From a virus: a stretch of 52,173 nucleotides of DNA. The stretch covers positions 1 through 52,173 of IMG/VR virus record IMGVR_UViG_3300023199_000094; one strand, given 5' to 3'. Below, in pieces: positions 3,001 to 35,634 of this stretch. The first letter of the stretch is position 1. Every line of letters begins with the position of its first letter. Position numbers and translations under genes: made by a program. Under the pieces are notes generated by a model that saw only the letters and a list, made by a program, of their open reading frames with translations, did not search any database and was not told where the DNA came from.

Positions 3001-6000
3001 ATTTTTAATTAACAGCGCCGAACGAGAGACGATTGTAAACACACCCGAAAGAGCTTTAAAAGTACCAGAAACGATTTTTAAAGCTTTGTCTAAACGCAAA
3101 GTTAAAACACCGACCACGCCTTCGATGATGTCGTTTGCGCCGGAGAAAACCTTAAATACGCCTTTAGCCACACCGAACAAGTCTTTAAAAGCGCCGATGA
3201 CAGGATCAAGTGTGCCTAGTTTTTGCAAGACGTCTCTAACTTTATTAAAACTAAAAACCAAACCTATAAGAATTGGCGAGCGTTTTCCAATGTCTTTAAA
3301 TAGATTACCTATAAACTTACTAGTCTCTTCAAAAGCTTCTCTAAGTTTACCTTGTGCTAGTTTAGCGCCAAAATTCTCAATAACTTGAGATGCAGAAATC
3401 GTACTTTGTCTGACGCCTTCCGTTACACGGGAGTCGAAACCAGCGCGAATCGTATCAGCCAGTAGTTCAAGCGATGCGGAAACAGGCTTAACAAGCAGTG
3501 TGGTATACGCCTGCTTAACTAGCGGTTGGTTTTGTTCAGAGCTTGCTATAAGGCGATTTGTAATCTTGCTACCGATCTGTGCTACGTTTTTATCTACGGC
3601 TGTAGCTACAGCGGATACCGCCTTTCCCAAACCAGAAGAAGATGCGCCCCTAAGACCTTTTGTAAGAAGGCTATAAAAACCTTGACCAAATCTTACACCA
3701 GCGCCACGCAACGGCGAGCGTGGGTTTTTTGGCTCGGATTGCGGAATAAAATCAACGACCGATTCCTGTAATAGATCTATAAAGGCGCTCTGTAGCCGAA
3801 CTTTGTCCGCTTTTGCTGCACCTTCTGCCGCTACTTTAATAAAGTTTGGTATTAACTTTCTAGCGGCGTCTTCACCCTGTTGCGCTAAAACAACACCAAT
3901 ACGGCCGACAAAACTTTGAAACTCTTTTTGACCGGGTAGCTTAACGTTTTTAACGCCTCTAAACTGCTCTTCCAGTCGTTGCCTAATCTTTGGGGATGTC
4001 TCATTTAATTTAAGTAGAAAGCCTTCTAAAGCATTGGCGAAATCAGTAAACTTTTTACGAGCTTCAGGGACGTCTCTCGACAGTGAATTAACACCAGACC
4101 GTACCGCACTAAAATCCTTCGTAATAGTACTTGCAGCCTTTCCGAAAAACTTTGAAGCGGTCTTCTGTTGCGCGACTCTAGTTTTTAAGAAAGCTGCTAA
4201 ATCACCACTCGCAAAAGCGGTGATAACATCCTGAGAAGACTTACCACCACCAAGAGCCGACCGGCCTGTAGCTCCAAGCAGTGCCTCAGCGCGCGCGCGT
4301 ATAATATCTCTGCCTATTTCAAAAACAGATTTTGAAATTACTTGCGCGCCTTGGGTAGATTGCTGCACGGTCTGCTGCACCGTGCCTTGTACAGCAGCTT
4401 CAACTTTACCTCTGGTTCCAGCAACAGCAGCTTCAATTTTCGCACCACTGTTTTCTATACTCTTCGTTAAAACGTCGCCCGGAGCACGGAACGTCGCCGC
4501 CTCGCGAGCCTTTCTTTCTAAAGACTCACTAAACGGATCGCGAGACCTAGCAGTAGGAGTACCGCGTGCGGATAGCTGTAAAGCGCGTTCTCTAATCAGG
4601 GCTTGTTCAACAGACTCTAACGCCTTTAATCGCTGTCTGTTAAAATCAATATCCTTTTGAGCTTTTTTCTCAATAATCTTGATTGAATCAGCAATTGCAT
4701 CATTTTCTTCTCGAATCTGTTGCTGAATCTTCAAACGATTCTTAAGAATATCTTGATTGGTGTCTATCACCAACTTCAGGCGAGCCTTTTCGCGCTCTAT
4801 CGTCTGATTTAACTCTTCCTGCTCACGATCAATAGCCGCAATAACCTGCTTTTGTGTGTCTAAAGCAACTTTAGAGGTATTTTTCTCTACTCTTGCCTTT
4901 TCAACAGTAGTTTTAATACTCTCTTGTTCGGCTTGGATAAACGCCTGTATTTTACCTAAATCAAAAGATTGATTAAAAGCTTCTCTAGCGACTCGAACAG
5001 CTTTCTCCTGCTCTCTCGTAGCTTTAGAAGCACTTTTTTGCTTCGCAATGATTTTAGATGTCGTATCGATTTCTCGTTCAATCGCTTCGACTTTTTCTTT
5101 CTGTTGACGGATACGTACCGAAGCAGCCGCTTTGTTTTTTGATTCAATCTCTAGAAGAGCCTTAGCAACTTTAATAGAATTTTGGGCCTTAACCTGATTT
5201 TCCCTATCTATAACCCCTTTCTCTTTTAGAGCGAGGATAGCCTTTTTGTCCTCCTTTATCCGTTTCGACAGAGCGACAGCAGCTTTCTTTGCTGCTTCTG
5301 CACTACCTTCCTGAGCTTTAGTCGTAGCTTTTAGCAAATCTTGTAGTGACGAGACGCTTTTAGCGTGGTCCTCGGCCGCAGTCGTGAGTCTAGCTAAACG
5401 CTGTCTCTCTTTGTCCGCAATAACAATGCTTTGTTTACGCTGCTCCTCAGCTCGCTTCGCTAAGGCTACACCAGCATCAAGTTTCTCTCGTAGGATATTG
5501 CGTTTCTTAATCTCTTGGTCGACAGCTTTCGCTTTTTCCTGAAGTGTTTTTATTTCTTCGTTATCGGTCTCTATCACCGCAATCGACGCACGTACCTCGT
5601 TTCGTAAACGCTGTATCTTTTTTTCGTCTTCAGAACCCGAAGACCTACTGACCTTTAAGAGAGCAGCTTCCGCGGCTTTAAGATCCTCAAACGCTTTAAC
5701 ATTAGCAGCAAGTTGTTTTTCAACGTCTTTTAAACGCGCCTCTTCCTCTTTGCGAGAACGATCAATTTGTGATTGGGCTCTTACAACATCCTTAGCAGTC
5801 CGCTGACGCAGTTCTCTAACACGGGTTTGAGCATTTTCTAACCTCTTTTGCGCCTCCGCGACACCATCCGTAGTCTTAATCTGACTACGTAATCTATTAA
5901 TTTCCTTATCGCGCGCCTCGCGAGACTTATTTATGGTTTTAACAACATCGTTTTGCTCTTTCTTAACCTCTTGGAAATCTTGAGAAATCCGACGCGTGGA

Positions 6001-7947
6001 CGGTGTAAAAATCTCACGAATACGCTTACCTAAACCAGACAGGGGTGTCGTAACGACTGCGCCAATCGTTTGACCAATACGCTTCAAGAATCCAAGGCCT
6101 GACCGAACAGACTTCGGCAATATCTTCTCGAATAGACTCTTAACCTGCCCGCCTATAATCTTCTGTACATTAATGGCGCGTTGTAAAATAAGAACGCTAG
6201 TCCTACGTACAAAACCCCGCACAACATTACCGAAAAATATGAAAGGTAGGGAAATTGTATTTACAGGGATTCTTAACAGCGTCGGCCAAAAGTTCGACAC
6301 GATCTTACTGAACCGTGTCGCCAGACGCTCAGTAATGATCTCATTTTGCTCAAGGTTAACACCCCACGCTTTAGATGCAGCGGTGTTGCTTATTAGACTT
6401 TTAGTCGTACGTTCAAGCTCGCCGGCAATACCAAAAACATCAACACGTAAATTAGCAACGTTATTGACCGTGGTTAAAAGAATCTTTGTAATCGTATTTA
6501 AAGACTGAACAATCGAGCTGATCGTGCTTCTAATAACGTTAAAAATCTTGATAATACCCACTCCCTTCGGAAGTTGTTTCCGAAGATCGTTTATAGCTTT
6601 GAACACAAAACTCAAAGCGTCGCGCGCTTGACCAAAGAATATAATAAATCTTGACCGACCGTCACCAAGCGCAGCTGAAATACGTAAGAAACCAGCCCTC
6701 GCCTTTGAGACAAAGTTACTTACTAATGGAGTAAGAATAGAAAAGACACCGATAATACCTGATAATCCTGCGGACAGGGTCGTGACGTTGAACACCACAC
6801 TGATTAAAACCGACGACGTTAAAGACACCAACCCTAAAATAGAAGCCACTCTATTAGCTAATATTGTGATAGGCGAGATAAGATTATTAATCGAGATGAA
6901 TAAAGTGTTGATTAAGGCTGCTAGTCGACCGAGTACCGATTCTGGCCGCTGCGATGCAAAAATACGAACCTGCCCAACGATACCTTTAAAGATCGCGTTA
7001 AACCCTAATAAAGTCACCGACACTAGACCGAGTGTCGAAATTTTCGTAACTAAAAAGCCTAGAATACCATCAATCTTAAACAGACTAGATCCGATTGCGT
7101 CAACTCGAGGGACAAGCGGACCAATAAAACTTTGAACCGTAGTGCCTATACCTTTAACAACCGAACCAATACCTTCCACTAAACTAAATATAGCGAAAAA
7201 AGTGTTTTCTAAAACAGAAAAAGTCGTTGAGAAAACACCTTCAATAAAAGAAGCAACGCCCGCAAAACCGGAAGTCAAATTAACAGCTACTTGCTGAATA
7301 TTGTCCGATAGAGTCGTGAGTGAAAAACCAAATCCAGACACGCTAGCCGTAGCCGCGCCGGTCGCTGCCGTAGCCGCGCCGGTCGCTGCCGTAGCCGACT
7401 GAATTGACGCCTCAGCGGTTGCGACAGACGCCGAAACAGTCTGTACAGCTTGTGCCGTCGCTTCCGTAGTGGTGGTAGCTGTCGTCATTGACGACACAAA
7501 ACCTGGTATGGACGTAAAACCAATAAACGAAATAACCGCCGCCCACTGACTGAAAGACTCAAAAGCTCTATTCACAAATCGAGTAAGAGTATTCGTCGTC
7601 TCGGACGCTTGTCGGCCAACTTCTTCTAGTGATCGATTAGTCTCTGCCCGAGTACGTCCGATAGCCCCGCCAACTGTCGACGTAGCTCTTACAATCGCAT
7701 CAGACGACGCGCCTGCAACAGCCGAAAAAGCTGCCCCTATCCGATCCAACGTAACTCTAATCTTAGATAGATTAAAATCAATACGCTGAATCGACGATGT
7801 CAGTTTAGTGTCGTCTGCCGCAATAGAAACGTTAAATCTCTGCTTTGACAGATTAGCAAGCCTATTGTCTAGTTTGCTAATCTGTTCAAAAACATTATCT
7901 AATTTCGCGACAAAATTAGTTACGACGTCGCCGACGAGTAAGGCCAT
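1..7947 (-). CDS. Tape measure protein, C-terminus beyond the window
   Basis: One minus-strand frame is open without a stop from the ATG at 7945-7947 to base 1, giving at least 2649 residues. The ATG overlaps the stop of the upstream chaperone frame as TAATG. The composition is that of a siphovirus tape measure: hydrophobic Ala/Val/Ile/Phe-rich helical stretches at about residues 80-640, a Lys/Glu/Arg-rich coiled-coil region at about 650-1100, and a second Gln/Glu-rich coiled coil from about 2230 to the edge. Two copies of an SPPxxGPLAGxFL motif occur near residues 1766 and 1826; comparable Pro/Gly motifs recur in phage tape measures. The position directly after tail tube and G/GT-type genes supports the call. 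The protein sets tail length and is threaded through the tail tube. At roughly 0.15 nm per residue (a family rule of thumb) the tail would be about 400 nm or more. Confidence 0.93.
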   Translation of the reverse strand, partial: MALLVGDVVTNFVAKLDNVFEQISKLDNRLANLSKQRFNVSIAADDTKLTSSIQRIDFNLSKIRVTLDRIGAAFSAVAGASSDAIVRATSTVGGAIGRTRAETNRSLEEVGRQASETTNTLTRFVNRAFESFSQWAAVISFIGFTSIPGFVSSMTTATTTTEATAQAVQTVSASVATAEASIQSATAATGAATAATGAATASVSGFGFSLTTLSDNIQQVAVNLTSGFAGVASFIEGVFSTTFSVLENTFFAIFSLVEGIGSVVKGIGTTVQSFIGPLVPRVDAIGSSLFKIDGILGFLVTKISTLGLVSVTLLGFNAIFKGIVGQVRIFASQRPESVLGRLAALINTLFISINNLISPITILANRVASILGLVSLTSSVLISVVFNVTTLSAGLSGIIGVFSILTPLVSNFVSKARAGFLRISAALGDGRSRFIIFFGQARDALSFVFKAINDLRKQLPKGVGIIKIFNVIRSTISSIVQSLNTITKILLTTVNNVANLRVDVFGIAGELERTTKSLISNTAASKAWGVNLEQNEIITERLATRFSKIVSNFWPTLLRIPVNTISLPFIFFGNVVRGFVRRTSVLILQRAINVQKIIGGQVKSLFEKILPKSVRSGLGFLKRIGQTIGAVVTTPLSGLGKRIREIFTPSTRRISQDFQEVKKEQNDVVKTINKSREARDKEINRLRSQIKTTDGVAEAQKRLENAQTRVRELRQRTAKDVVRAQSQIDRSRKEEEARLKDVEKQLAANVKAFEDLKAAEAALLKVSRSSGSEDEKKIQRLRNEVRASIAVIETDNEEIKTLQEKAKAVDQEIKKRNILREKLDAGVALAKRAEEQRKQSIVIADKERQRLARLTTAAEDHAKSVSSLQDLLKATTKAQEGSAEAAKKAAVALSKRIKEDKKAILALKEKGVIDRENQVKAQNSIKVAKALLEIESKNKAAASVRIRQQKEKVEAIEREIDTTSKIIAKQKSASKATREQEKAVRVAREAFNQSFDLGKIQAFIQAEQESIKTTVEKARVEKNTSKVALDTQKQVIAAIDREQEELNQTIEREKARLKLVIDTNQDILKNRLKIQQQIREENDAIADSIKIIEKKAQKDIDFNRQRLKALESVEQALIRERALQLSARGTPTARSRDPFSESLERKAREAATFRAPGDVLTKSIENSGAKIEAAVAGTRGKVEAAVQGTVQQTVQQSTQGAQVISKSVFEIGRDIIRARAEALLGATGRSALGGGKSSQDVITAFASGDLAAFLKTRVAQQKTASKFFGKAASTITKDFSAVRSGVNSLSRDVPEARKKFTDFANALEGFLLKLNETSPKIRQRLEEQFRGVKNVKLPGQKEFQSFVGRIGVVLAQQGEDAARKLIPNFIKVAAEGAAKADKVRLQSAFIDLLQESVVDFIPQSEPKNPRSPLRGAGVRFGQGFYSLLTKGLRGASSSGLGKAVSAVATAVDKNVAQIGSKITNRLIASSEQNQPLVKQAYTTLLVKPVSASLELLADTIRAGFDSRVTEGVRQSTISASQVIENFGAKLAQGKLREAFEETSKFIGNLFKDIGKRSPILIGLVFSFNKVRDVLQKLGTLDPVIGAFKDLFGVAKGVFKVFSGANDIIEGVVGVLTLRLDKALKIVSGTFKALSGVFTIVSRSALLIKNAFDVVQAAARTLSSGVSSVFKGLFSGTKGLFSGVKRLFSGVKRLFSGKSVQKDLSSINKDIDAAQQKSLENRKKLFERSGKITADSLARGIRKGIPDISKATDKAVEEGVANKVPNSPPKTGPLAGNFLNKAGRNITSTVGKGIIAGNKDLFKSMTGVLTTSVKNQLPASPPLSGPLAGNFLSDAGRKMIKFISLGILSEKNPLSRAVSFTLTAAFLPIFGPASLVFQGIKSLISGVVNLKNTVQSLARASGLESLKKLGEQIVDLGLAAERFAPSDETSEDFVKKFNAFGTAVRKFRVDSTRLETIFLTLDRQLRDAVADPVSDAAANFEKLGVDIRSFADGTEDIIDVFLRVSDATASGFIQPEDVQQAFDLTAAQFGNLRNLVLAGGDEIRQAIEETSAVANLFTEDDIAVAKDFNNQMVNLDVALEGLQSRLFTAIAPQLQSLLDSVVGFFAKNRDLVLGTIDAIGRLFGVALRIAGKLLTLISTDAPRVFSGLAEFIFVTGSNLFRVLVQKAQEALPIVFTLISKLQPLLFKVAQFVGEVVIPFVIGQVRLAIESIINSISNDLLNNIQRSITQFLINLDKALPDFAKFGLAEAQEQAQAQAQANLQASLSDVLDVEQRIKRTQDRIRSTESEIARFESNLQSEQLANELQAAQEAVAEAEEAISDAIRSSAPIERVRELSLIRLDAIDNLELIQRSVSDSERDQRIAQRALEQEKELLEQQQEEYERLLPVLEEAQQKALTSGSAVVDRIDANIKRQREQSARDLAKRADELGAELGEEASKTIKNIAPEVEALGKVAFETLGDVGSTIGAGLSNLAGDLGLADEVTKAEAILSEIGGLVGQIKTTEGVSDELLRAAEAVESSLQTARRRNLALIKDFDNQVNEIRGKLSSELSGIETLDIADIARTRETAFKELEQSVIKLGQAQLRFIRDRQILELEIAEAGGFQFASDQQVADLQFLNQVIGVQEARLRSVLQELENIREVSGSIDQLNVL
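2860..2943 (-). repeat. Four 21-bp tandem repeats inside the tape measure gene
   Basis: Units 2860-2880 and 2881-2901 are identical, and units at 2902-2922 and 2923-2943 are diverged copies. Each encodes a heptad of the type LFSGxKx (about residues 1668-1695), so the array extends a regular helical stretch in steps of seven residues. Changes in copy number would keep the frame and alter tape length by small steps. Confidence 0.85.
7346..7400 (-). repeat. 21-bp tandem repeat in the tape measure gene
   Basis: Two identical 21-bp units lie at 7346-7366 and 7367-7387, followed by a partial third. They encode an Ala/Thr/Gly-rich tract near residue 190 of the tape measure protein. The units are more GC-rich than the surrounding gene. 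The likely origin is replication slippage. Confidence 0.8.
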
Positions 7948-8570
7948 TATTCCCCTCTTGTCTTCTTCAGTTGGGCGAGCTTAGCTTCATACTTTAAGGT
8001 TTGTGTTTCAACAATACTATCTAAAGAAGGCACTAAGACGCCTGTATTAGACCGCAGCCAACGTCGGAAATTATCATGAAAAGCGCGGAACATCTGTTCC
8101 TTCTTTTTCTGAGACATTTTTTTAGATTTATGGCGTCGTTTCGTACGCACAGGCAGCTCGTATTCTTCGTCTTCCTCGTCATCTTCGTCTTCATCACCGA
8201 TGTCACGAAGAAAACCGTCTACCTCTTCAATCTTGTCTCCTAACTCATCAAATGCGGATCTCTGACCTTTTTTCGTAAACATAGTTGCGGCGGCAGCCAT
8301 AATCGTCATAGTTAAATAACGTTGTTGCTCTAGTGTTTGCTTACTTACCACCAAAACGACTTCTTGAAACACATCAATAGGCAACTCTACGACGTATTCA
8401 GCGTCCCAGCCCGCTCGCACCAAAGCGGCCACGGCTTCCACAATGTTGATTCTATTGTTGTTTTCATCGCGAAAATCCGTGGCCGCTTTTAGTGCTTCGG
8501 TGGAGCCTTTTAGGCTAGCGCGCCGCTTAGTGCGTTTTTTAGGCCGCCATGCTCCCAATTGACGACCCAA
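7947..8570 (-). CDS. Tail assembly chaperone, frameshift extension (GT-type)
   Basis: This frame follows and overlaps the upstream chaperone frame in the -1 register, and ends in TAATG with the tape measure start. It is probably not translated alone: the only start at its head is a TTG at 8570 inside the other gene, without a clear ribosome site. Slippage at 8534-8540 would join residues 1-171 of the upstream protein to 195 residues of this frame, giving a 366-residue fusion. The extension has a strongly acidic patch (Asp/Glu run) followed by a Lys/Arg-rich stretch. In lambda, gpG and gpGT are non-virion chaperones that hold the tape measure and recruit tail tube subunits. The location between tail tube and tape measure genes is the same here. 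Confidence 0.8.
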   Translation of the reverse strand: MGRQLGAWRPKKRTKRRASLKGSTEALKAATDFRDENNNRINIVEAVAALVRAGWDAEYVVELPIDVFQEVVLVVSKQTLEQQRYLTMTIMAAAATMFTKKGQRSAFDELGDKIEEVDGFLRDIGDEDEDDEEDEEYELPVRTKRRHKSKKMSQKKKEQMFRAFHDNFRRWLRSNTGVLVPSLDSIVETQTLKYEAKLAQLKKTRGE

Positions 8571-9154: not shown

Positions 9155-10027
9155 TTAGCACTCGATACCAGTCGAGACCTTTTCGAAGTTATCGAACAGG
9201 TGGAACGAACCACGGTTACCGGTACCGTCAGCCAGAATCTTGCAACTAAATGACTGCGACATGAACGCCGCCGGATCAATAGTGGTATCGCCTTCGATAC
9301 CGATGCTGACGAACGGGAACTGGTAGGCGAACAGCGGACCAATGCGGTTAAGCGCCTGAATCTTCATAGCGCCTTCCAACACCGCGCCCGTCTGGATACG
9401 ATATTCAGTTGTTTCGCGGACGTAATTATACGTGATGATAACCTCGGCGCCGTCCACAATAGCACCAGACGACATACGAGCAGTTGTAGCCGGGGTACGA
9501 CCCGTGCCTGTGCCTGCAGCCTGAGTAAAGGTGTAATCCACACCCTCCACGTAGGTCACAGAGCCGTCCGTCGAACGGACGAGCACATCATCGACGGTAT
9601 CATCCTCCCAATACAGATCGACATAGTCTAGCGAGCCGTCTTCAATCGCTAGCGCATCAATGATCTCGGCCGTTGTACCCACAAGACGAATACGCTTCTG
9701 CTCAAGCACTTCATACGTCGACGCAGCATCCGGTGCAATATTCGGACGGAAAAGAAGCACAAGGTTATTACCGACAAGCTCATCAAGCGTGAACTTGATA
9801 TCGCCAGTAACCTTGTTGACGACGTGTTTATCCTCAGTCAGAAGACCGTTACGCGCGCTTTCGTGCGTAAGGTACTCGTCCGTGAGCGTCAGGGCAATCG
9901 ACGCTGCGTTGCCAAGATCAAACCACGGGCAAAGCGTGCCGTCATCATCGAATGGCGCAAACCAAATCGACAATGCCGACGGCATCATGTAGTTATCGGG
10001 ATTGTTAGGTAATTTTACAAGAGCCAT
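9155..10027 (-). CDS. Major tail tube protein
   Basis: This 290-residue, mostly beta-type, Thr/Val/Gly-rich protein lies between a probable tail terminator gene and the chaperone pair, which is the standard place for the tail tube subunit of long non-contractile tails. A strong site, CGGAG, lies 8-9 nt before the ATG at 10027. A strong hairpin terminator follows the gene, as expected for a virion protein made in hundreds of copies. No sheath gene is adjacent, which argues for a siphovirus rather than a myovirus. The family is inferred from context and composition; no signature motif was recognised. Confidence 0.75.
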   Translation of the reverse strand: MALVKLPNNPDNYMMPSALSIWFAPFDDDGTLCPWFDLGNAASIALTLTDEYLTHESARNGLLTEDKHVVNKVTGDIKFTLDELVGNNLVLLFRPNIAPDAASTYEVLEQKRIRLVGTTAEIIDALAIEDGSLDYVDLYWEDDTVDDVLVRSTDGSVTYVEGVDYTFTQAAGTGTGRTPATTARMSSGAIVDGAEVIITYNYVRETTEYRIQTGAVLEGAMKIQALNRIGPLFAYQFPFVSIGIEGDTTIDPAAFMSQSFSCKILADGTGNRGSFHLFDNFEKVSTGIEC

Positions 10028-10547: not shown

Positions 10548-10999
10548 TATACTTCTGGTTTACTCGACCGTTTTAATAGATACCGCTGGTGTATGTTCGT
10601 GTTGAATATACCTGCGTCGTGTTTGTCAGTGCTAATTATGAACCACGTCGAAAACGAATCAAACAACACCATATCGCCTGTGGTGAAATCTCGGTCAATG
10701 TCAGGGTGTTCTAACAGGCGTTCTTGTATCCATTTACTCATCTCCCAAACAGCGTCGACGTCTTCAGCCAGTACAGTCAATTCCTGACGGCGCTGCCGGT
10801 CCACGTCAACCCAAGTCTGCAGTATCCACGGGGCGATGTCTACGACTAAGTCTATCTCCTCGTACGACGGCTCTCCGGCCGGTGTGCGAGCGCCGTAGAG
10901 GTCCCTATATGGAGACGCTGCGGTCTGTCCCGTCTCATCAGCGCGTTTCTTTAACGCAACTTTTATAAGACGTGCGTTCGTAGTCGAATTATAAGTCAT
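10547..10999 (-). CDS. Probable head-tail joining protein
   Basis: This 150-residue protein sits between the adaptor-like gene and the probable tail terminator, where head-closure (SPP1 gp16 or HK97 connector) proteins are usually encoded. The C-terminal third is beta-rich (DMVLFDSFSTWFIIS). The start overlaps the upstream stop as ATGA (10996-10999). No diagnostic motif was recognised, so the role is inferred from gene order only. The alternative is an unrelated minor structural protein. Confidence 0.4.
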   Translation of the reverse strand: MTYNSTTNARLIKVALKKRADETGQTAASPYRDLYGARTPAGEPSYEEIDLVVDIAPWILQTWVDVDRQRRQELTVLAEDVDAVWEMSKWIQERLLEHPDIDRDFTTGDMVLFDSFSTWFIISTDKHDAGIFNTNIHQRYLLKRSSKPEV

Positions 11000-11565
11000 G
11001 ATTGCACTGATCTAAAAACGCGGTCAAGGTTACCAGTCTTAGCTAATAAAGGCCGGACTAGATTGTAAGCTTCCGGACAGAGTTTATGCGTACGCGCATG
11101 TCTTGGATCCGCTGACTCTGTTCCACCTGCTCGCGTCACACTAAAAATACCTTGCGCTTGATGATCTAGTCTCTCATCCAACTGAACACCGCGAAGTGTA
11201 TTATTTAATATGTACCAAGCCTGCTCACAACAGCCCTGAGCAATAATAACAGGTATCGACTGTTCAAGATAGAAAATATCACCATAACTACCAATACCAA
11301 GGTATCTCGGCCATTCGCGAATTTGTTGAATAATCAGTTTATGACCGACCCAATACTGTTGGTCTAGTTGCAAAGTCGCTTCGCGCAAAGCGCTTATACG
11401 GTCTAGGGGAGCCGACGGATCTTGTTCAGGAACAGAGAACCACGCGGCTTTACGCGTTAGCGTATCGCTAAAATAATCGTTAGAATAGTTCACTGTTGCG
11501 TACGGCAACACGGGCTGGTGAAAATCTAACTGCGTTTGATAACCATTATCCGTATTGGCAGGCAT
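10996..11565 (-). CDS. Head-tail adaptor, DnaT-like-fold type
   Basis: The 189-residue sequence has the pattern of phage connector proteins often annotated as putative DnaT-like ssDNA-binding: an ALREATLQLD helix, then a tyrosine/glycine segment, a WPR motif near residue 84, a helix with IPVIIAQGCCEQAW, and a PLL-type C-terminal helix. These proteins form the ring under the portal. The gene lies after the capsid genes and before the joining and terminator genes, which fits. It ends in an ATGA overlap with the next gene. The family match was made by eye and should be confirmed by a profile search. Confidence 0.55.
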   Translation of the reverse strand: MPANTDNGYQTQLDFHQPVLPYATVNYSNDYFSDTLTRKAAWFSVPEQDPSAPLDRISALREATLQLDQQYWVGHKLIIQQIREWPRYLGIGSYGDIFYLEQSIPVIIAQGCCEQAWYILNNTLRGVQLDERLDHQAQGIFSVTRAGGTESADPRHARTHKLCPEAYNLVRPLLAKTGNLDRVFRSVQS

Positions 11566-11578
11566 TTTACATCCTTTA

Positions 11579-12127
11579 CTATAACAGTCGTCCCAATACG
11601 GTCACAGAACCTATAACAGCGGCCAACATACCGACCAAACGTCCGGCGGTAGAGGCAAAAGCTCTCTTCTCTTTAGAGGCATCGGCTTTGGTTTGAAGAG
11701 CTTCTATCACTGCTTTCTGATCTCGTTTAAGTACTTGAATATTTGCGCGGGTGTCGTCTAGAGAAGTAGAAAAGATTTTAACACTACGCGATAATTTACT
11801 AAACGCGCCTTCCACTTTTTCCCAAATATCAGGATCGCGCTTGGCTTTTGATTCGGCTGAGGAGACTTCTCTTTTCACACTCCGTAGGCGATCAGAAATA
11901 TCCTCTAAGATGTCTTCTAGGTCTTCCGTGCGACGGCTGTTGATATCGCGCTCGTTCCTTGCCGAAATTATCTCTCGCTTCAGCGATTCAATAACTCGTT
12001 TAGCCGTGCTTAAACGTTTCTCTAAATCACGCGCCTCTCTGTCTATAAAATCAAAAAAGTCATCAACGTCGTCTAAGACACCAAAGCGATCTAATATAGT
12101 ATCTTTAAGAGAAGATAAAACACTCAC
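11579..12127 (-). CDS. Coiled-coil protein with C-terminal membrane segment
   Basis: Of 182 residues, about 30-150 form a charged coiled coil (many Glu/Arg/Lys heptads), and the last ~25 residues (AGRLVGMLAAVIGSVTVLGR) form a hydrophobic helix. The function is unknown. A tail-anchored coil in the connector region could be a minor virion protein. Its first ten codons lie inside the left 107-bp repeat, and a second copy of the same start is fused to CsaA on the other side of the GC-rich insert. In the uninterrupted phage this gene would directly follow the HK97 gp10-like gene with a short gap. Confidence 0.6.
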   Translation of the reverse strand: MSVLSSLKDTILDRFGVLDDVDDFFDFIDREARDLEKRLSTAKRVIESLKREIISARNERDINSRRTEDLEDILEDISDRLRSVKREVSSAESKAKRDPDIWEKVEGAFSKLSRSVKIFSTSLDDTRANIQVLKRDQKAVIEALQTKADASKEKRAFASTAGRLVGMLAAVIGSVTVLGRLL

Positions 12128-12203
12128 TGCACCACTCCTTAGTACTTAGACAATAAGAATAACTCATATTCCGTGGCTAAAAGAACTTGATAAAACTCTC
12201 CAT
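12097..12203. repeat. 107-bp direct repeat, left copy
   Basis: This is identical to 14133-14239 over its full length. It covers the end of the HK97 gp10-like gene, the intergenic gap and the first codons of the coiled-coil gene. This copy supplies the intact start of the coiled-coil gene, plus a useless fragment of the gp10-like tail. Confidence 0.97.
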
Positions 12204-14132
12204 CCGCGGATGGCCGCGGGATGCGGGCCACGGGCGGCTCAGCGGCGGCCGACCGAGGGCCAGCGCGCCACCGACTCGCGCACACGGGCAAACTCGCCGG
12301 CCGGCACGCGGTACAGCTCGCGCAGCAGCCGGTCCGCCTCGTCCTCCACGTCGCGCACGTCCGCGTCGGCGTCGGCTGAGAGACGCCCCGCCAGCTCGCG
12401 GGCCATCGCCGCCAGCCGGTCGCGGGCATCCACCGCCAGCGGCGGGCAGGGCAACGTGCGCAGGTGCTTCACCTTCACCTGCGGCGACGTCTTCTGCCGC
12501 GCGTCCGGCCAGGTCACCCGGTGGAACCACGCCAGCAACGCGCTGTTGAGCAGCACCGCAAGCGCCTCCACCAGCTCGTCGGGCGCCTCGCACGCCAGCA
12601 CGCTGTTGCGGAAGTACGTCGGCCGGCCCGTCCCGTGCAACGCCGCCAGCGGACGGTCGGCCGTCTGCCGCAACAGCAGCGGAACCGCCTGGTAGCGCTC
12701 CAGCTGCCCGATCCGTGGTGGCGTCACACCGGGCGGCACCGCGGCCGGCGGCGCGACCCGCAGCCACTCCGACGGCTCGCCGACGACAAACGGCCGCACG
12801 TCGCGTCCGCGTCGGCACGGCAGCCAGAACGCCCCGTCCACTCCCTCGACGCCGGACCGGCTGGCCTCCCCCGCCGGCCGCTCGCGCGCGATCAGCTGCG
12901 CGGCCACGCCGCCGGTGTGCACGCCGGGGTCGGCAAACGACACGCCCGGCAGGTCGACCAGCTTCGGCAGCAACGTCAGCCGCGCCAGCAGCGACTCGTG
13001 CCCCGTTGGCGTGGCATGCCCGACCACCGCCCCCTCGCTGGCCGTGGCGGCCGCCAGCCAGCCATCCACCGCCGGCGGCGAGTCGTCGGCGCGCGGCGGG
13101 CCGAGCACCAGGATCACCGCCGGCCCGGTCACGCCGTCGAACGCCGACTCGCCGACACGCTCGATGTGCCGCAGCCGGTGGCGGCGCAGCAGCGCCCGGC
13201 GCACGCCGCGGTAGCCGTCGAGGTGTGCGACCTGCTCGGGCACAATCGCGCCGATCACGCCGTCGTCGGCGACGAGGTCGGACGCCAGCTCGAGAAACGC
13301 GCCGTGCGCGGAGGGGAAGCCGGCCATCCCGAGCGGAAACGCCTCGCGCAGTGCCGCGCGCCGCTCGTCGGAGAGGGCGTGCGCCTGGCGGTTGCCCCAC
13401 GAGATCCAGGGCGGGTTGAGCAGCACCACGTCGAACGGCTCGACGCCGGCCCACGTCGCGCGGTCGAGTGCGTCAGCGGTGCGCAGGTTGGCGCCCGGCA
13501 ACGCGGCGCGCGCGGCTGCCACTGCATCGGGGTCCACGTCCACGCCGTGCAGCTTGAGCGCTGCAACCGGCTGCTGCGCGGCCGCCAGCAGGAAGACGCC
13601 GTGACCGACCGCCGGATCGAGCACGCGCACACCGCGCGTGCGCCGCAGCTGCGCGAAGGCAAGCTGCGTGATGTGCCCGGCCAGCTCACGCGAGGTGGCG
13701 TGCGCGCCGAACGGATGCTGCCGGGACGGGCGCGGCACGGCTACGCCACCCGCGTGCCGGGCGGCACGTCTGCGTCGGGCGCCAGCAGGATTACGTCAAG
13801 CGGCGTCCCCGCGTCCGCGTCCGGCACCGCGCCGAGCACGAGCACCTCGCTGCGAACGGACGCCACCTGCCGCGGCGGCAGGTTGACCACCGCGCAGACC
13901 TGCCGGCCGACAAGGCCGCGCCGTTCGCGCGGATCACCCGGATCACCCGCGCAGTCCGCTTCGCCAGCCGCCACACCACCCGCGCGGCCCGCCTTGCCGG
14001 GAAGATAGCGCCGCGTGATCTGTGCACTGCTGCGCTTCACGCCCAGCGGGCCGAAGTCGATCCACAGCTGCAGCGCCGGCTTGCGCGCCTGCGGGAACGG
14101 CTCGGCGCGCACCACCGTGCCGACGCGCAGCT
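12204..14132. mobile_element. GC-rich foreign insert between 107-bp repeats
   Basis: This is 1929 bases of obviously much higher GC than the phage, with abrupt borders exactly at the repeat edges. It carries a CsaA-like gene lacking its native first residues and a complete DNA methyltransferase gene, in operon order on the minus strand like the phage genes. No transposase, integrase or terminal inverted repeat is visible. A 107-bp duplication is too long for an ordinary transposition. Possibilities are single-crossover integration of a 2036-bp circle bearing the phage segment, repair of a long-staggered break, or an assembly chimera. The mobile-element type is used only because no better category exists. 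Confidence 0.6.
12239..13738 (-). CDS. N6-adenine-type DNA methyltransferase (Eco57I/TaqI-like)
   Basis: This 499-residue protein has a GTG start at 13738, just after the csaA stop. It shows S-adenosylmethionine motif I (LDPAVGHGVFLLAA, about residue 40) and catalytic motif IV (NPPW, near residue 109), as in N6-adenine methylases. The C-terminal half has an 'ALAVLLNSALLAWFHRVTWP' segment and a following 'LRTLPCPPL' segment, a pattern of the target recognition domains in type IIG and TaqI-like enzymes. No nuclease motif is seen, so it is probably a solitary methylase that could shield DNA from host restriction. Codon use is strongly GC-ending, unlike every phage gene around it. The stop at 12239 lies 36 bases inside the insert, so the gene is complete. 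Confidence 0.8.
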   Translation of the reverse strand: MPRPSRQHPFGAHATSRELAGHITQLAFAQLRRTRGVRVLDPAVGHGVFLLAAAQQPVAALKLHGVDVDPDAVAAARAALPGANLRTADALDRATWAGVEPFDVVLLNPPWISWGNRQAHALSDERRAALREAFPLGMAGFPSAHGAFLELASDLVADDGVIGAIVPEQVAHLDGYRGVRRALLRRHRLRHIERVGESAFDGVTGPAVILVLGPPRADDSPPAVDGWLAAATASEGAVVGHATPTGHESLLARLTLLPKLVDLPGVSFADPGVHTGGVAAQLIARERPAGEASRSGVEGVDGAFWLPCRRGRDVRPFVVGEPSEWLRVAPPAAVPPGVTPPRIGQLERYQAVPLLLRQTADRPLAALHGTGRPTYFRNSVLACEAPDELVEALAVLLNSALLAWFHRVTWPDARQKTSPQVKVKHLRTLPCPPLAVDARDRLAAMARELAGRLSADADADVRDVEDEADRLLRELYRVPAGEFARVRESVARWPSVGRR

Positions 14133-14163
14133 TAGTATCTTTAAGAGAAGATAAAACACTCAC
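13741..14163 (-). CDS. csaA: CsaA-like tRNA-binding/chaperone protein fused to phage N-terminus
   Basis: The body matches the CsaA family closely: LRVGTVVRAEPFP, then ARKPALQLWIDFG, KRSSAQIT, then QVCAVVNLPPRQV, SEVLVLGA and a terminal GTRVA. CsaA is an OB-fold dimer that binds tRNA and has been described as a secretion chaperone. The first ten residues (MSVLSSLKDT) are those of the phage coiled-coil protein and come from the 107-bp repeat, so the native CsaA N-terminus has been replaced in frame. A Gly/Ala-rich insertion of about 30 residues sits between SSAQIT and LVGRQV, where the usual family member is short. The phage start and ribosome site would drive translation. Confidence 0.8.
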   Translation of the reverse strand: MSVLSSLKDTKLRVGTVVRAEPFPQARKPALQLWIDFGPLGVKRSSAQITRRYLPGKAGRAGGVAAGEADCAGDPGDPRERRGLVGRQVCAVVNLPPRQVASVRSEVLVLGAVPDADAGTPLDVILLAPDADVPPGTRVA

Positions 14164-14239
14164 TGCACCACTCCTTAGTACTTAGACAATAAGAATAACT
14201 CATATTCCGTGGCTAAAAGAACTTGATAAAACTCTCCAT
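14133..14239. repeat. 107-bp direct repeat, right copy
   Basis: This is identical to 12097-12203, at an offset of 2036 bases. This copy supplies the intact 3' end of the HK97 gp10-like gene; its copy of the coiled-coil gene start reads into csaA. Confidence 0.97.
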
Positions 14240-14591
14240 TGTCTACTAACGGTTTTTCCAAAAACTTAGCAGGGCCGAAGAAACCTAGGCTGGGGTGATT
14301 AAAGGGTTTTTCGTGTTGTATTTTGGCGTACACAACATTGGCACTACCGTAAACGACACGCGCTACTTTTACAGCATCCTCCAGACTAGGCAGTTCTTCG
14401 ACCCTGCCTGATTTCAGTAACTCACCTGTCAAAACCGGGACGTACAGCCGTGAGTCTTTTAGTAACTCTTTAGCCACGACCCTAATCGCATGGTTCGCGG
14501 CTTCCGGCACCGTCTGAGCGTACCGCACCAGACCTTGCACAAGAGAGCTACTAGAAAACGAAACGTCAATAGTCCCGATGACTTTAGGCAT
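14175..14591 (-). CDS. HK97 gp10-like head-tail protein
   Basis: In this 138-residue protein the central segment, with a helix followed by YVPVLTGELLKSG (about residues 52-64), is the recognisable signature of the HK97 gp10 family, whose members have a (V/T)P.(L/D)TG.L..S motif and act in head-tail joining or tail completion. The start overlaps the upstream stop as TAATG at 14589-14593. The last ~20 codons lie inside the right 107-bp repeat, and a dead fragment of them is repeated at 12139-12203. In the phage without the insert the next gene would be the coiled-coil protein. Confidence 0.7.
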   Translation of the reverse strand: MPKVIGTIDVSFSSSSLVQGLVRYAQTVPEAANHAIRVVAKELLKDSRLYVPVLTGELLKSGRVEELPSLEDAVKVARVVYGSANVVYAKIQHEKPFNHPSLGFFGPAKFLEKPLVDNGEFYQVLLATEYELFLLSKY

Positions 14592-15349
14592 TACTCTTTA
14601 ACAGCGGGGGGTACCACCGGCTTTTTATTACTGTCTTCTGTTACAGGAGGGGCCGGCGGTATCTTCATAGCGGCCTTAACCTCTTCAGGAGGTAGTACCG
14701 AAGTCGCCTTTGCTGCCGAATAACCAGTAGTGACCGACTTGCTCCTCTGTTCGTAACGCTCGCCTGTTTCCGGCGAGTCAGCAATAAGATTACTTACGCG
14801 GAAGATATCCTTAACGTTCGGTCGTTCGTCCTTATTCTGAACAACCGAAACAGCGTTAGAACGCTGAATGTTATAGACCTTACGCCAAATTTCTCCTTTC
14901 ATAACCGAACGGATGTTATCATCGTTCGTGTCGAAATTATCCCAATATAGAAGATGGACATGTTCTCTCATGTCATCGCCAGCCGACCACTGCGTACGCG
15001 TCAACGCCTTATTCTGGTTGTTCACGTAGTCAATAATCTGTCTCGCCACAGGAAGCGTGTACGAGTTGGCTTTGGGACCTATGTAATAGCGACGTCGATT
15101 CCACAAAACACTAAACTTGTGCGACGACGAAATCCTAAACGTATTTTCTTTAATCTCTGCCTGTAGTCGCGAGCAGACAGGTTCGTGCTGGCGTGTTATT
15201 TCCTTCAAAATCTCGATAGGGGGTACTTCTTCCCCAATCTCACCTGCAGTATAACCCTGATTAATAAGCTTACGATAAGTGTGGGTCGTTATGTCTCGAA
15301 GCAGTTCTAGAGCGTTTGCACTTGAAATTTGAGCAGCGATCTTGTCCAT
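14591..15349 (-). CDS. Unknown head-region protein
   Basis: This 252-residue protein has a compact N-terminal domain of about 190 residues and a Pro/Lys/Ala-rich tail (for example IPPAPPVTEDSNKKPVVPPA) that looks disordered. It lies directly after the major capsid gene and its terminator, and before the gp10-like gene. A role in the head-tail connector or as a capsid accessory protein is likely from position, but no family was recognised. It ends in a TAATG overlap with the next gene, so the two are probably translated together. Confidence 0.6.
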   Translation of the reverse strand: MDKIAAQISSANALELLRDITTHTYRKLINQGYTAGEIGEEVPPIEILKEITRQHEPVCSRLQAEIKENTFRISSSHKFSVLWNRRRYYIGPKANSYTLPVARQIIDYVNNQNKALTRTQWSAGDDMREHVHLLYWDNFDTNDDNIRSVMKGEIWRKVYNIQRSNAVSVVQNKDERPNVKDIFRVSNLIADSPETGERYEQRSKSVTTGYSAAKATSVLPPEEVKAAMKIPPAPPVTEDSNKKPVVPPAVKE

Positions 15350-15434: not shown

Positions 15435-16391
15435 TTAAGCAGCAAGGTCGCGAATCGAAGCCGCGTGCCACGGATTCTCATAGGCGAACTGGCTGTAGTG
15501 TTTAACAAAGAACTGCGAAGCGTCAAAGGAACCCGGATCACGAGGCTCCACAGCAAAGTCCTGTAGAAGCTTCCACTTGATCTGGCTCATGTCGATAAAG
15601 TCCATGCGCCCCGGCTCGTAATCCGGCACCGCAACCACAGGAATGCCCGTGAATAGAAGGGTATCAAAACCACCCTCCATGCGTTGCGATTCTTGACGAC
15701 GGCGCCGCTCCTCAAGCAACGTACCATAAGACGTCCAAAGATCATAATTACAGAGAATATGCGAGACGGTAGCGCCGCGCGTTCTCATTTCATTATAAGC
15801 TTGGAACATCAAGGTTTCGGTAAGCGGGCGAGGGACACCGCCGTTGCTGAGAACGAACGATCTCCACCACGCATTTACCGACCGATCAATACCGGCATAG
15901 GTCGTAACAAGTGAACCATCGTCGATAGCCGCCTGAATACCGGTAATATTAGCGCCATCAGAACGCAGAACCGGATTGGCACCGTTAAGGTTACCAACAC
16001 CATCCGCCAGAAGCTGGAACTCAATCTGACGCTTCAGGTCACGCATGGCCTGAGACGTCTCAGTAGCAATCGCATTAATAATCGAGTTCTGCGATTCCGA
16101 CTGAGCCTGAGCCAGACCAGTCACACGAATAACAGCTTTATTTAGCTTCCAATCAAGCTTTGCCGTTTCGTATGCCTGCTCACCGGCGCTACCGAAATTT
16201 TCAGTCTCGAAGTACGAACCAACCGAGCTGTTGCCCGCGTAGTTCACCTTCCACTGAATATCCTTCTCTTTATAAGTCTCAACCTTCGGCGCAACAATAT
16301 TACCAAAAACCGTATCGCGACGAAGAGTTTCTCTGAACGCAGGGCCAAACTGTTCACGGATTAGTTTGGCCACTTCAGAAGCTTCGAACAT
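15435..16391 (-). CDS. Major capsid protein, HK97 fold
   Basis: This 318-residue protein has features of HK97-type capsid proteins. An extended N-arm comes first, followed by a segment with 'FGSAGEQAYETAKLDWKL'. A spine helix (TSQAMRDLKRQIEFQLL) lies near residues 105-125. A C-terminal beta region has 'FTGIPVVAVPDYEPGRMDFID' and ends with 'AYENPWHAASIRDL'. AGAGGAA lies 7 nt before the ATG at 16391. It has its own near-consensus promoter upstream and a terminator downstream, and follows a scaffold-like gene. All of these are typical of the main head subunit. Confidence 0.85.
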   Translation of the reverse strand: MFEASEVAKLIREQFGPAFRETLRRDTVFGNIVAPKVETYKEKDIQWKVNYAGNSSVGSYFETENFGSAGEQAYETAKLDWKLNKAVIRVTGLAQAQSESQNSIINAIATETSQAMRDLKRQIEFQLLADGVGNLNGANPVLRSDGANITGIQAAIDDGSLVTTYAGIDRSVNAWWRSFVLSNGGVPRPLTETLMFQAYNEMRTRGATVSHILCNYDLWTSYGTLLEERRRRQESQRMEGGFDTLLFTGIPVVAVPDYEPGRMDFIDMSQIKWKLLQDFAVEPRDPGSFDASQFFVKHYSQFAYENPWHAASIRDLAA

Positions 16392-16474
16392 TTTCGTTCC
16401 TCTTTACAGAAGTGCCATTGTTATTTTCCATGGTCCCTGCGTCCACAGGCGTACCCTCTCTGTGTACCGTGTGT

Positions 16475-17692: not shown

Positions 17693-18535
17693 CTATTTAT
17701 TGAAACCCGCAAAATGCTTGTTTACTATTGTGGGTAAGTCTTTTATTCCAAAAACCTTACCTGAAAAATTGTCCGAAACAGGTACTATTCTATGTCTACA
17801 GTTCGGGTGGAACAGGTGTACTGACAGTTCTTTAGACTCTGTCACAAACTCCAACGCTTCTAAATCTATCACCTTTTCGTTACACCATCTGCAAGTAGAA
17901 GCTGAATTATGAACAATACCTCCCACAACCTTAAACACCTTGTTTTTTATATAAAACCTAACAAAAAATTTGGTTAGGTCACGTTCAAGATTATCAGGTA
18001 TTGTTTTGAATAAGAGTTTCACGTACGGCACCAAACCTAAATTTACTTTACGTCCCTGTCTCTTAGGCTTGTTTAAACCAAATATATTAAGTATAAAACC
18101 TAGAATACCGCCCTGTGGTTTAGGTTCGGGTCGTCCTCGTTTGATAGCCAACAACCGACGCCGCTCATTTTCTTTACGTATTTGTCTTTTAATCTCCGCG
18201 GTCAGCTTTTCAACATGTTTCTGACCTATACGAGCCGCGACAACAAACCCTTTATTTAAAGATTGTTCCCAAGAGTTAATCGACCTATCTTTCAACAGCT
18301 TAAAAATAGAAGGTACAGGGTCGTTGCCTATGCGCGGGCGTATGCGATTTTGTACGTAGTTCTCAAATAGCTTGTTGGTCTCGGAGATGGCATAAGACAT
18401 CAACACATCTTTAATTTTAATCAGCTCGCCTTCGTCAAATCGTGTGATATCAGCTTCTACGGTCTTGACATAATTTCTCAAAGTGCGAAGATGCGAATTA
18501 ATATCCGCGGCAAAGAACGCTCCGAATATAGCCAT
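17693..18535 (-). CDS. Minor head protein (Mu F / SPP1 gp7-like)
   Basis: This 280-residue protein has an N-terminal helical region and a basic middle (about residues 120-165). The C-terminal zinc-binding-like motif CRWCNEKV plus HPNCRHRIVPV (near residues 215-250) is characteristic of the phage head morphogenesis domain of Mu gpF and SPP1 gp7. Such proteins bind the portal, enter the procapsid and help DNA ejection. The gene directly follows the portal gene with a TAATG overlap (18533-18537), exactly as in the reference phages. Confidence 0.8.
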   Translation of the reverse strand: MAIFGAFFAADINSHLRTLRNYVKTVEADITRFDEGELIKIKDVLMSYAISETNKLFENYVQNRIRPRIGNDPVPSIFKLLKDRSINSWEQSLNKGFVVAARIGQKHVEKLTAEIKRQIRKENERRRLLAIKRGRPEPKPQGGILGFILNIFGLNKPKRQGRKVNLGLVPYVKLLFKTIPDNLERDLTKFFVRFYIKNKVFKVVGGIVHNSASTCRWCNEKVIDLEALEFVTESKELSVHLFHPNCRHRIVPVSDNFSGKVFGIKDLPTIVNKHFAGFNK

Positions 18536-20355
18536 TACATTATGTTATTAGAGTTAAATGTATCCGTTAGAGTCTCTTGGCCGGGAGTTAAACCCGTACC
18601 GCCGGCCGTATCCAAAGGACTGTTAGCCTCCATACCAAAGTTTTCTTCCTGCTTAATCGCCATACCAAACGCCTCATCCGCCCCTGTCATATCTTCTTTA
18701 ATACGATCCATCTCTACGCTAATTTCATGATCGGATAAACCATCCACATCACGAAGCACGCGCTCAACAGAAATAGACTGCTGCCCTTGCAGTCTCTCCA
18801 GCAACATACGCTCATCCTGCGGTAGCGTTGGCTTAAATTTGATTTCAATATTCTTAGCTTTAAAAGCATCAAGGTTCAGAGACCCAGGTAGCACATCTCC
18901 CACTTCACGTTGGGAAGTAAGTACTTCATCTTCATCCTTGGTCGGGTCGTCAAGAACCTCCGAATCCGAATACCGCAACTCACCTGAAGCATGCAGCTGC
19001 ATAACATACACCCAAAGCAACCGTCTTAAAGCTGTTTTAAAATCTTTTTCTTTGCGGCGGACACGATTCAAAGTAGGTGTGAGGCGCATTTTATAAGCCA
19101 CACCTGACTCTGGTACCACTTGTTCGTGGTTAATAATCAAAGAACCGCTGATTTCTGCTAAAGTACAAAACATATTGACGTCATTTTTAAACTCGTCCGT
19201 AGCTTCCTGAAGCTGAGCATCCCACGTCAGGTATTCCGGTTTAAAATCAGCGTTCTCTGGAGATATGAATAGTACCTCGTCTCTGAAAGCACGGACCAGA
19301 ACTTCCCCAGTAAAGGGGTCTTTCTGTTGCATGTCCTCAGGGACGAGTAATTTAGGGTCGGCGTGGATGTTTAAGATACGAGAGCGTTGCGTACCCCTAA
19401 CGTTAATAGATAGCTGAAGTTCGGTCAGATCATCATAATCAGTAATAAATTGTTTCATAAATATCTGATTAGGGATGATCTGTAACAGAAAATCGTCAAT
19501 ACCCGTCTCTTGATGCGAAATGCCTTCCTCGTCAACAGGAGGCAGGTTATCGTCTAGCCACCGAGGATCTAAAACCAACAAAATAAAGTCATCTTTAACC
19601 GTATAGAGATAGTACTCAATGCGACCTCGATAGTGCCTCTCCTCAAAGATTATGCCGTCTGGCTGGTCTCCTTCATCGGGTTTATTAAACCCTAAATCCT
19701 CTAGTGTGTAGCCTTCCGGAAGACGAAGTTGGGACGGGTCAATATTTATCTTCTTGGCGACCCACTCAAACCTATCGTTGCTTCCAGATTTCCACTTATA
19801 GTAGAGCTCTTTTGGGTGGATAACAACAATATCGACACCGTCGTCATCCGTAACCACCTGCAAGCCTAACAGGCCCATTACGGACACTGCGGTGGCCCAG
19901 TCAGAAAAGTAGTCTGGTAAGCCTGCCTCATCGCGAATATAATCATCAATCTCCGAGATGCCGGTTAAAATCTCAACGCCGCCTCCCATCATAAGATCGA
20001 CATACGTCTTCGTAGCAAAACGTAAAAGATTATATTTCTTATAAAAGCTTTTACCAGTCTTCATCCACTCAGGGCGTAAGTGCTCTTCGTGCTCGCCCAT
20101 ATAATACGCAAAGTTCTTCTCATAGACAGACGCCCGTATCTTATCTGCGTCTGTGCGCCAGCGTATTTTATTCGCCTCGTCCTCATTGACATCGTCTTTT
20201 AGGAACTGACGGGCATATAAATCTCGCTCAGCTAGCCTATCTATGACATTCTGTGTGTACCGGCTTTTACTGATAGCGGTCTTAATCTGCGCTTCAAATA
20301 TATTGACAACGCCCGGCACGCCATACTGCGAAAACCCATTAGGACTTAGTGGCAT
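18535..20355 (-). CDS. Portal protein
   Basis: This 606-residue protein shows an N-terminal region with 'YYMGEHEEHL' and 'FATKTYVDLMMGGG' typical of SPP1/DUF935-like portals, a beta-rich wing with 'DGVDIVVIHPKELYYKW' and a C-terminal helical part rich in Glu/Gln/Lys. Portals form the dodecameric ring at one capsid vertex through which DNA is pumped. The gene lies downstream of the large terminase and immediately before the minor head protein gene. GGAG lies 6-7 nt before the ATG at 20355, just behind a perfect GC hairpin. Confidence 0.85.
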   Translation of the reverse strand: MPLSPNGFSQYGVPGVVNIFEAQIKTAISKSRYTQNVIDRLAERDLYARQFLKDDVNEDEANKIRWRTDADKIRASVYEKNFAYYMGEHEEHLRPEWMKTGKSFYKKYNLLRFATKTYVDLMMGGGVEILTGISEIDDYIRDEAGLPDYFSDWATAVSVMGLLGLQVVTDDDGVDIVVIHPKELYYKWKSGSNDRFEWVAKKINIDPSQLRLPEGYTLEDLGFNKPDEGDQPDGIIFEERHYRGRIEYYLYTVKDDFILLVLDPRWLDDNLPPVDEEGISHQETGIDDFLLQIIPNQIFMKQFITDYDDLTELQLSINVRGTQRSRILNIHADPKLLVPEDMQQKDPFTGEVLVRAFRDEVLFISPENADFKPEYLTWDAQLQEATDEFKNDVNMFCTLAEISGSLIINHEQVVPESGVAYKMRLTPTLNRVRRKEKDFKTALRRLLWVYVMQLHASGELRYSDSEVLDDPTKDEDEVLTSQREVGDVLPGSLNLDAFKAKNIEIKFKPTLPQDERMLLERLQGQQSISVERVLRDVDGLSDHEISVEMDRIKEDMTGADEAFGMAIKQEENFGMEANSPLDTAGGTGLTPGQETLTDTFNSNNIM

Positions 20356-21915: not shown

Positions 21916-22245
21916 CTATCTGCCTTCGTCAACACCAACGTCAACTATACTTTCGCGTCCGCGAAATTGTAGTGGTGTATAGCCGTCTTTAGCACGAGCG
22001 CGATCTACTAAAGAAATAAGCTCATTTTCCCAATCTTTTACATCTTCGGCTAAAGACTTACGCACAACACCTAAAACACCCCATTTAAAAGCAAAACCAT
22101 AAAACTTAAGGCGTAGCGGAGTACCTTCTTCCGATTTACCGGGAGAATAATACTCATTAGAAAAACCTGCCGTAGTTCCCCAAACGACTCTTGGAAGCAC
22201 GTTTAAATATAACCAAACCAAAACTTTCATCACTTTAGCTTTCAT
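21916..22245 (-). CDS. Unknown small protein with N-terminal hydrophobic segment
   Basis: This 109-residue protein has an N-terminus (VMKVLVWLYLNVLPRVVWG) long and hydrophobic enough for a membrane anchor or uncleaved signal. The remainder is mixed and charged. The gene overlaps the end of the large terminase gene by 11 bases, so it is co-translated with it. No family was recognised. Confidence 0.5.
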   Translation of the reverse strand: MKAKVMKVLVWLYLNVLPRVVWGTTAGFSNEYYSPGKSEEGTPLRLKFYGFAFKWGVLGVVRKSLAEDVKDWENELISLVDRARAKDGYTPLQFRGRESIVDVGVDEGR

Positions 22246-24083: not shown

Positions 24084-24746
24084 TCAATACATATCCATAC
24101 GGATACCTAAAAGATGTACATTTATAGACGCTGAAGGATTAGACGGATTAGAAGGATCTATATGCTGGATGTCTAAAACAGACATTAAAATAGCGGCTTG
24201 TTTAGTGTCCACAACATTTTGCAACTCTGTTGTCACATCCAAAAACATAAGAGTATCTTTAAGTAAATAAACATTTTCTATAATGATTTCGTCCGGTGTA
24301 AGAGCTAATTCATGAGTGTCGGCTACTTTATGGCAAAAATGTATATCTACTAGACACTCTTGGTCAGCTTGTAGACCTATAAAAGACGCTCTCATAAAGT
24401 CGTACTGCTGTAAATTCTCAATCGCTAAAAAGCCTTTACCTCCGTTGTTAATAATCGTAGTGGGCATACACCCTATGTTTGACGTCACAGGGTGAGATTG
24501 AAATGATATAAACTCTGCGTCATCGGGGTGAGTGTGGTGTTTTACTATTCGATCTAAATGTAAAATATCCGCTTCCGATAGCTCGTTAAGCATCGTGATT
24601 ATAACCTGCTTATTAGCTACGTCCCAAAACGGCAGTGCTATAATGTTTCGATCGCTTAGACAGGCATCGCGTGTGACTAAAAGGTAGAGAGACAGAGGGT
24701 CTATTCGTTTATCTTCAATTAAATTAAACGTATAGTTGACTGGCAT
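24084..24746 (-). CDS. Unknown protein downstream of repeat fibre
   Basis: This 220-residue alpha/beta protein starts within a TGATG overlap with the stop of the long repeat fibre gene. It ends just before the terminase gene. Near its C-terminus it carries a DPSNPSNPS motif shared with other putative virion proteins. Translational coupling to the fibre suggests a fibre chaperone or tail accessory protein, but there is no sequence signature for that. Confidence 0.5.
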   Translation of the reverse strand: MPVNYTFNLIEDKRIDPLSLYLLVTRDACLSDRNIIALPFWDVANKQVIITMLNELSEADILHLDRIVKHHTHPDDAEFISFQSHPVTSNIGCMPTTIINNGGKGFLAIENLQQYDFMRASFIGLQADQECLVDIHFCHKVADTHELALTPDEIIIENVYLLKDTLMFLDVTTELQNVVDTKQAAILMSVLDIQHIDPSNPSNPSASINVHLLGIRMDMY

Positions 24747-26929: not shown

Positions 26930-26931
26930 GG

Positions 26932-27327
26932 TTAGCTCACCACAAGGTAGTAACAACCGTCCGTAAGAAGATAAGCCTCATTGCTCACGGTGCAGTATGT
27001 ATTATTTAGGGTACTCACGGGTACGACGTCTTCAATTGGCGGCGATACCCAACCTTTACGAGGCGCGCTGTCAGAGAGAAGCACAAACTCCACCATACCT
27101 GTCGAAATACGATGATATAAAAATACAATATCAGAAGCATCAAACTCTGGAGGTAGTTCTACATTATCTCGAAGAGCGCGCGCCCACGCATTGCGGTCTA
27201 CAACTCTAGTGTATCCATAAAGACGATAACCCGGGAGTGCTGCAATCGTTCTGGCAGGAAGTAATAGCCGATACACCGGCTGACTCTCGAAAAAATCTCC
27301 TGTTGGTCGGTAATCGAAGACAGTCAT
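26932..27327 (-). CDS. Paralogue B of the fibre-associated 131-residue family
   Basis: This 131-residue protein is clearly homologous to the product of 28112-28507. Both have an N-terminal PTGxxFExxxVYR-type motif and a middle containing F-L-hydrophobic-HRIS(T/S)GM-E-VLL, then D-APR-GWVSPP. It is encoded immediately upstream of the long repeat fibre gene, as its paralogue is upstream of the short one. The pairing suggests a fibre adaptor, base or assembly chaperone, but the family itself was not recognised. The stop is two bases before the fibre ATG. Confidence 0.65.
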   Translation of the reverse strand: MTVFDYRPTGDFFESQPVYRLLLPARTIAALPGYRLYGYTRVVDRNAWARALRDNVELPPEFDASDIVFLYHRISTGMVEFVLLSDSAPRKGWVSPPIEDVVPVSTLNNTYCTVSNEAYLLTDGCYYLVVS

Positions 27328-35632: not shown

Positions 35633-35634
35633 GA

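Follow-up and report, generated by a model that had tools for sequence, protein, structure and literature searches.

Two Bacterial-Type Genes between Perfect 107-bp Direct Repeats in the Late Operon of an Uncultivated Tailed Phage: a Possible Illegitimate Capture

Introduction

The mycobacteriophage Giles reportedly captured host DNA by illegitimate recombination, as Morris et al. are said to have described in 2008. We found no repeat longer than 21 bp within 6 kb in the first 50 kb of the Giles genome. Ordinary transposition leaves a short target duplication, about 2 to 14 bp, and end joining with filler DNA at filled-in staggered breaks is known mainly in eukaryotes. Illegitimate recombination is named as a route by which phages take up DNA in the part of PMC8136500 that cites the Giles paper. 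In the isolate mycobacteriophage LRRHood, 1.35 kb of extra DNA at genes 43 to 46 is flanked by perfect 29-bp direct repeats, of which relatives have one copy (PMC3029335); we recovered these repeats at 15042-15070 and 16398-16426. The mechanism by which morons are acquired has been termed mysterious (PMC4378225).

The locus described here lies in an IMG/VR virus record, a linear sequence of 52,173 bp (the window, that is, the whole stretch of DNA analyzed), a single contig in which the region is present once. The present locus and the reported Giles case share a piece of bacterial chromosome in a phage genome with no evident homology or recombinase. Giles, however, has been isolated and its host is known, whereas the present phage is uncultivated and its insert is bounded by a 107-bp duplication. 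The locus shares with LRRHood extra DNA between phage genes and perfect direct repeats, but the LRRHood repeat is 29 bp long, the DNA between the copies carries phage-type cargo (a repressor), and relatives with an empty site exist. In its anatomy, the insert is a longer-repeat case of the kind known from LRRHood. Filled-in staggered breaks offer a further likeness, namely, foreign filler flanked by a direct target duplication.

Results

The contig belongs to a tailed phage, and the late genes listed in Table 1 are all on the minus strand. The tape-measure-like frame runs off the left end of the window, which implies that the tail is very long and that the contig is incomplete; a 59-bp imperfect direct repeat (2435-2493 and 2594-2652, 75%) lies within this frame. 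Searches with the capsid, terminase, minor head, and major tail proteins and with the repeat DNA recovered phage relatives at only about 25 to 36% identity. The preliminary description had proposed looking in related phages for the uninterrupted junction; we ran this check and found no uninterrupted A-B site among these relatives, none of them close. Elsewhere in the window, a UDP-GlcNAc 2-epimerase-like gene beside a hexapeptide-repeat transferase-like gene (34533-36390, minus strand) suggests sugar modification, and two proteins (32126-32806, minus strand; 48214-49116, plus strand) have weak MptE-like (pterin diphosphokinase-like) matches under the curated cut-off.

Table 1. Features of the insert and of the surrounding late region
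Feature	Coordinates	Strand	Remarks
Tape-measure-like frame	1-7980	-	about 2,660 codons, off left end
Major tail protein	9155-10027	-	
Head-tail adaptor	10996-11565	-	
Phage gene B, coiled-coil-like protein, intact	11579-12127	-	182 aa; GTG start in left repeat
Left 107-bp direct repeat copy	12097-12203	+	repeat search, string comparison
Perfect 14-bp palindrome CCATCCGCGGATGG	12200-12213	.	across left junction: 4 bases phage, 10 insert
GC-rich insert, bacterial origin	12204-14132	-	1929 bp, 75.7% GC
Predicted N6-adenine DNA methyltransferase, TaqI/BseCI type, intact	12239-13738	-	499 aa; Pfam N6_Mtase, Eco57I
csaA-type (chaperone/tRNA-binding-like) open frame	13741-14163	-	fused to gene B start
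Right 107-bp direct repeat copy	14133-14239	+	repeat search, string comparison
Phage gene A, minor head protein-like, intact	14175-14591	-	PHROG 556; relative in L002 36% identical
SU10-like major capsid protein	15435-16391	-	
Portal	18535-20355	-	
Terminase	22235-24079	-	

By whole-window repeat search and direct string comparison, the two repeat copies are identical at 107 of 107 nucleotides, with a spacing of 2036, and the next base differs on both sides. Read on the minus strand, the repeat comprises the last 65 nt of gene A, an 11-nt spacer, and 31 nt from the start of gene B, beginning with its GTG; the spacer region reads TAAGGAG, in which TAA is the stop of gene A. In the left copy, the gene A part is only a fragment, and the gene B start belongs to the whole gene B, which has its own ribosome site (GGAG ahead of the GTG, read directly from the sequence). 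The right copy completes gene A and lends the 31-nt gene B start to the csaA fusion. The repeat edges track no gene feature, which fits random breakpoints, and inspection by eye showed no nicking-site symmetry at either edge. A palindrome such as that across the left junction is expected in about 0.1% of random joins and is possibly the trace of a 4-base microhomology with a donor palindrome.

Another perfect long repeat in the window, of 108 bp (25841 and 26303, 462 apart), belongs to a repetitive tail-fibre-like gene (24746-26956, minus strand, 736 aa) with about 10 internal repeats of about 153 bp. Several perfect direct repeats of 31 to 115 bp also occur within 2.5 kb of a distantly related virus contig (L028:17323-19791).

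The GC content of the insert far exceeds that of the repeat (33.6%) and of the remaining window (44.9%). Other 1929-bp stretches of the window reach at most 51.5% GC (mean, 44.9; standard deviation, 2.2), so chance is excluded. The preliminary description had reported perfect repeats, a far more GC-rich interval between them, and intact phage genes at both edges, and all three observations held, gene A ending in the right copy and gene B starting in the left. At third codon positions, GC is 86 to 92% in the insert genes and 37 to 52% in phage genes, which marks the insert as DNA from the chromosome of a very GC-rich bacterium.

Both insert genes are sense oriented with the late operon. The csaA frame lacks its own first ~10 codons, which are replaced in frame by the gene B GTG and following bases, ten phage codons in all (VSVLSSLKDT), after which the frame reads on as CsaA (KLRVGTVV...). 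Twelve residues precede the RVG motif, matching the shortest N termini among relatives, and alignment to a solved CsaA is gap-free. The fusion scores 115.8 bits against the CsaA model TIGR02222 (cut-off, 119.65), its N terminus being drawn from phage codons and some 26 residues being inserted internally. CsaA genes occur in 2 of 50,697 phage records, and we know of no use of CsaA to a phage.

The second gene starts 2 nt past the csaA stop and ends 35 bp from the left repeat. Motif I (DPAVGHGVF, residue 41), an NPPW motif IV (residue 108), and similarity in the catalytic domain to BseCI (E = 2.1e-12) and also to TaqI predict that its product is an N6-adenine DNA methyltransferase of the TaqI/BseCI type. 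No relatives at E<=1e-5 were present in the phage or plasmid records searched.

We searched for a donor with both proteins against genome_contigs and about 300 to 400 genomes from each of two phyla. The closest csaA match in this set was 53% identical and came from a Bacillota metagenome-assembled genome, and the closest methyltransferase matches, at about 30 to 35% identity, were from Chloroflexota. The csaA-methylase pair was side by side in no locus examined in genome_contigs and the sampled genomes, and the insert had no near match in the genomes or viruses searched. The donor is probably not the host of this phage, since the two are 31 GC points apart. The preliminary description had spoken of host genes, but nothing ties a very GC-rich bacterium to this 45%-GC phage as its host.

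The insert contains no transposase, and no terminal inverted repeats pair its ends; the duplication is 107 bp, not 2 to 14 bp. Neither an integrase (insert and window proteins scanned) nor Ku (window proteins scanned) was found in this incomplete linear fragment, whose left end cuts the tape-measure gene; to that extent, the earlier statement that transposase and integrase are absent is correct for the insert and the window frames scanned. Rfam gave no match in 11500-15000 up to E = 1, and thus no self-splicing intron or other known RNA element was found there. Physical genome ends with 107-bp terminal repeats are unlikely at this site, which lies within the head-neck operon and has no other mark of an end. 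We also set aside assembly k-mer overlap as the source of the 107 bp: 107 is not known to be a standard k value of the usual metagenome pipelines, and the 52,173-bp window has no Ns, and thus no N gap.

Like a moron, the insert has genes of foreign composition between two intact phage genes, at 75.7% versus 44.9% GC. It differs from one in that no sigma-70-like promoter (the only type covered) and no terminator beyond chance were found within it, so that it reads as part of the late operon, and in that a long flanking duplication lies outside the moron definition. The insert works like a moron, yet we do not file it as one, as no promoter or terminator of its own was found.

Discussion

In our assessment, the insert is real rather than chimeric with a probability slightly better than even. 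We give an even chance to a capture event that was recent and independent of homology, in which donor DNA was taken up between phage ends that overlapped by 107 bp and was retained as nothing essential was broken. The nearest precedents for such an event are Giles and LRRHood. A bacterial chromosome fragment, holding csaA minus its 5' end and the methyltransferase gene, would have been joined by illegitimate recombination to two ends of phage DNA. A single break staggered by 107 nt and filled in ahead of the joining could account for the overlap, as could ends belonging to two copies of the replicating phage genome; the duplicated 107 bp would be the scar of the join. The insertion would be tolerated because the duplication covers a gene boundary, so that genes A and B each retain a whole copy. 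The long duplication may thus be a survivor's mark, with no special enzyme needed. The preliminary description had offered three routes without choosing among them; a staggered break, or overlapping phage ends, fits the anatomy best, and its 2036-bp circle is unsupported.

A phage possessing this structure may express the insert within a late operon ordered A, csaA fusion (with the ribosome site and start of gene B), methyltransferase, and B. It could benefit if the methyltransferase shields progeny DNA from restriction, which is plausible. More tentatively, and with some doubt on our part, the locus may be a non-host bacterial operon captured very recently at a staggered break, with a long duplication that left the late operon unharmed and also provided the csaA start; it would then be a moron-like insert at birth, its repeats not yet lost.

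The main competitor, to which we assign a substantial probability somewhat short of even, is a chimera that arose in vitro or during assembly, in which GC-rich DNA of a second organism was joined into a phage contig. Whole-genome amplification may have switched templates, copied ~1.9 kb of bacterial DNA, and returned 107 bp behind; possibly, instead, a bacterial contig was placed between two phage contigs that share 107 bp at their ends. Much of what favors a chimera also counts against capture: the record consists of one metagenomic virus contig, which is incomplete, the composition of donor and phage differs by 31 GC points, and the donor gene is cut within csaA. The insert lacks a near match, our searches yielded no relative with an uninterrupted site, and the formation of chimeras during amplification is well documented (PMC1855051). 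In addition, perfect 107-bp direct repeats should recombine and shed the insert quickly, so the insert would have to be very recent or selected, which counts against capture, as does a truncated CsaA with no known benefit for a phage.

Against a chimera, both ends must join one phage spot within 107 bp, and a join that returns so near its exit point in a genome of >50 kb needs a physical link between the ends. Among 475 amplification chimeras, 85% of joins were inverted and only 2.3% were direct joins within 10 kb (PMC1855051); near, same-direction joins are thus rare, and return to the same template has no obvious route. The window also lacks an N gap. Finally, the insert amounts almost exactly to two whole genes that are sense oriented and in frame. 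By a rough model, only whole genes are contained in 0.9% of donor pieces of 1929 bp taken at random, and the share of late-region sites at which insertion leaves all genes intact is about 4% for a duplication of 9 bp, 16% for 107 bp, and 60% for 500 bp. When the 0.9% and 16% factors are further multiplied by 1/2 (strand) and 1/3 (frame), the observed layout is expected in about 2 in 10,000 cases for a fragment and site drawn at random. This rough figure favors selection over a random chimera, but we give it only moderate weight, as its criteria were chosen once the sequence had been seen.

Integration of a 2036-bp circle carrying one 107-bp copy, by Campbell-type single crossover or by site-specific recombination with a recombinase acting in trans, is very improbable. 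The geometry fits, with one repeat per end and a spacing of 2036, and islands that rebuild a gene end look alike; such a circle, however, would have to carry, next to bacterial DNA at 76% GC, 107 bp of phage sequence at 34% GC that includes two structural gene ends. No such sequence turned up elsewhere in our searches, and the insert has no integrase and the record no second copy. Equally remote is a cassette mobilized by an element that generates target duplications of roughly 100 bp, which would explain the precise, nearly intact gene cargo and the long perfect duplication but is opposed by the lack of terminal inverted repeats, of a second copy, and of any related cassette in the viruses, phages, and plasmids searched, and by a cut inside csaA that is unlike a cassette boundary.

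If the insert is a chimera, it calls for caution with lists of phage-borne bacterial genes taken from single contigs. If instead the capture between overlapping phage ends is real, an insert bounded by its own duplication would reveal the breakpoints of bacterial gene capture by a phage. It may also suggest why long duplications are favored, as the modeled share of surviving sites rises from 4% through 16% to 60% at 9, 107, and 500 bp.
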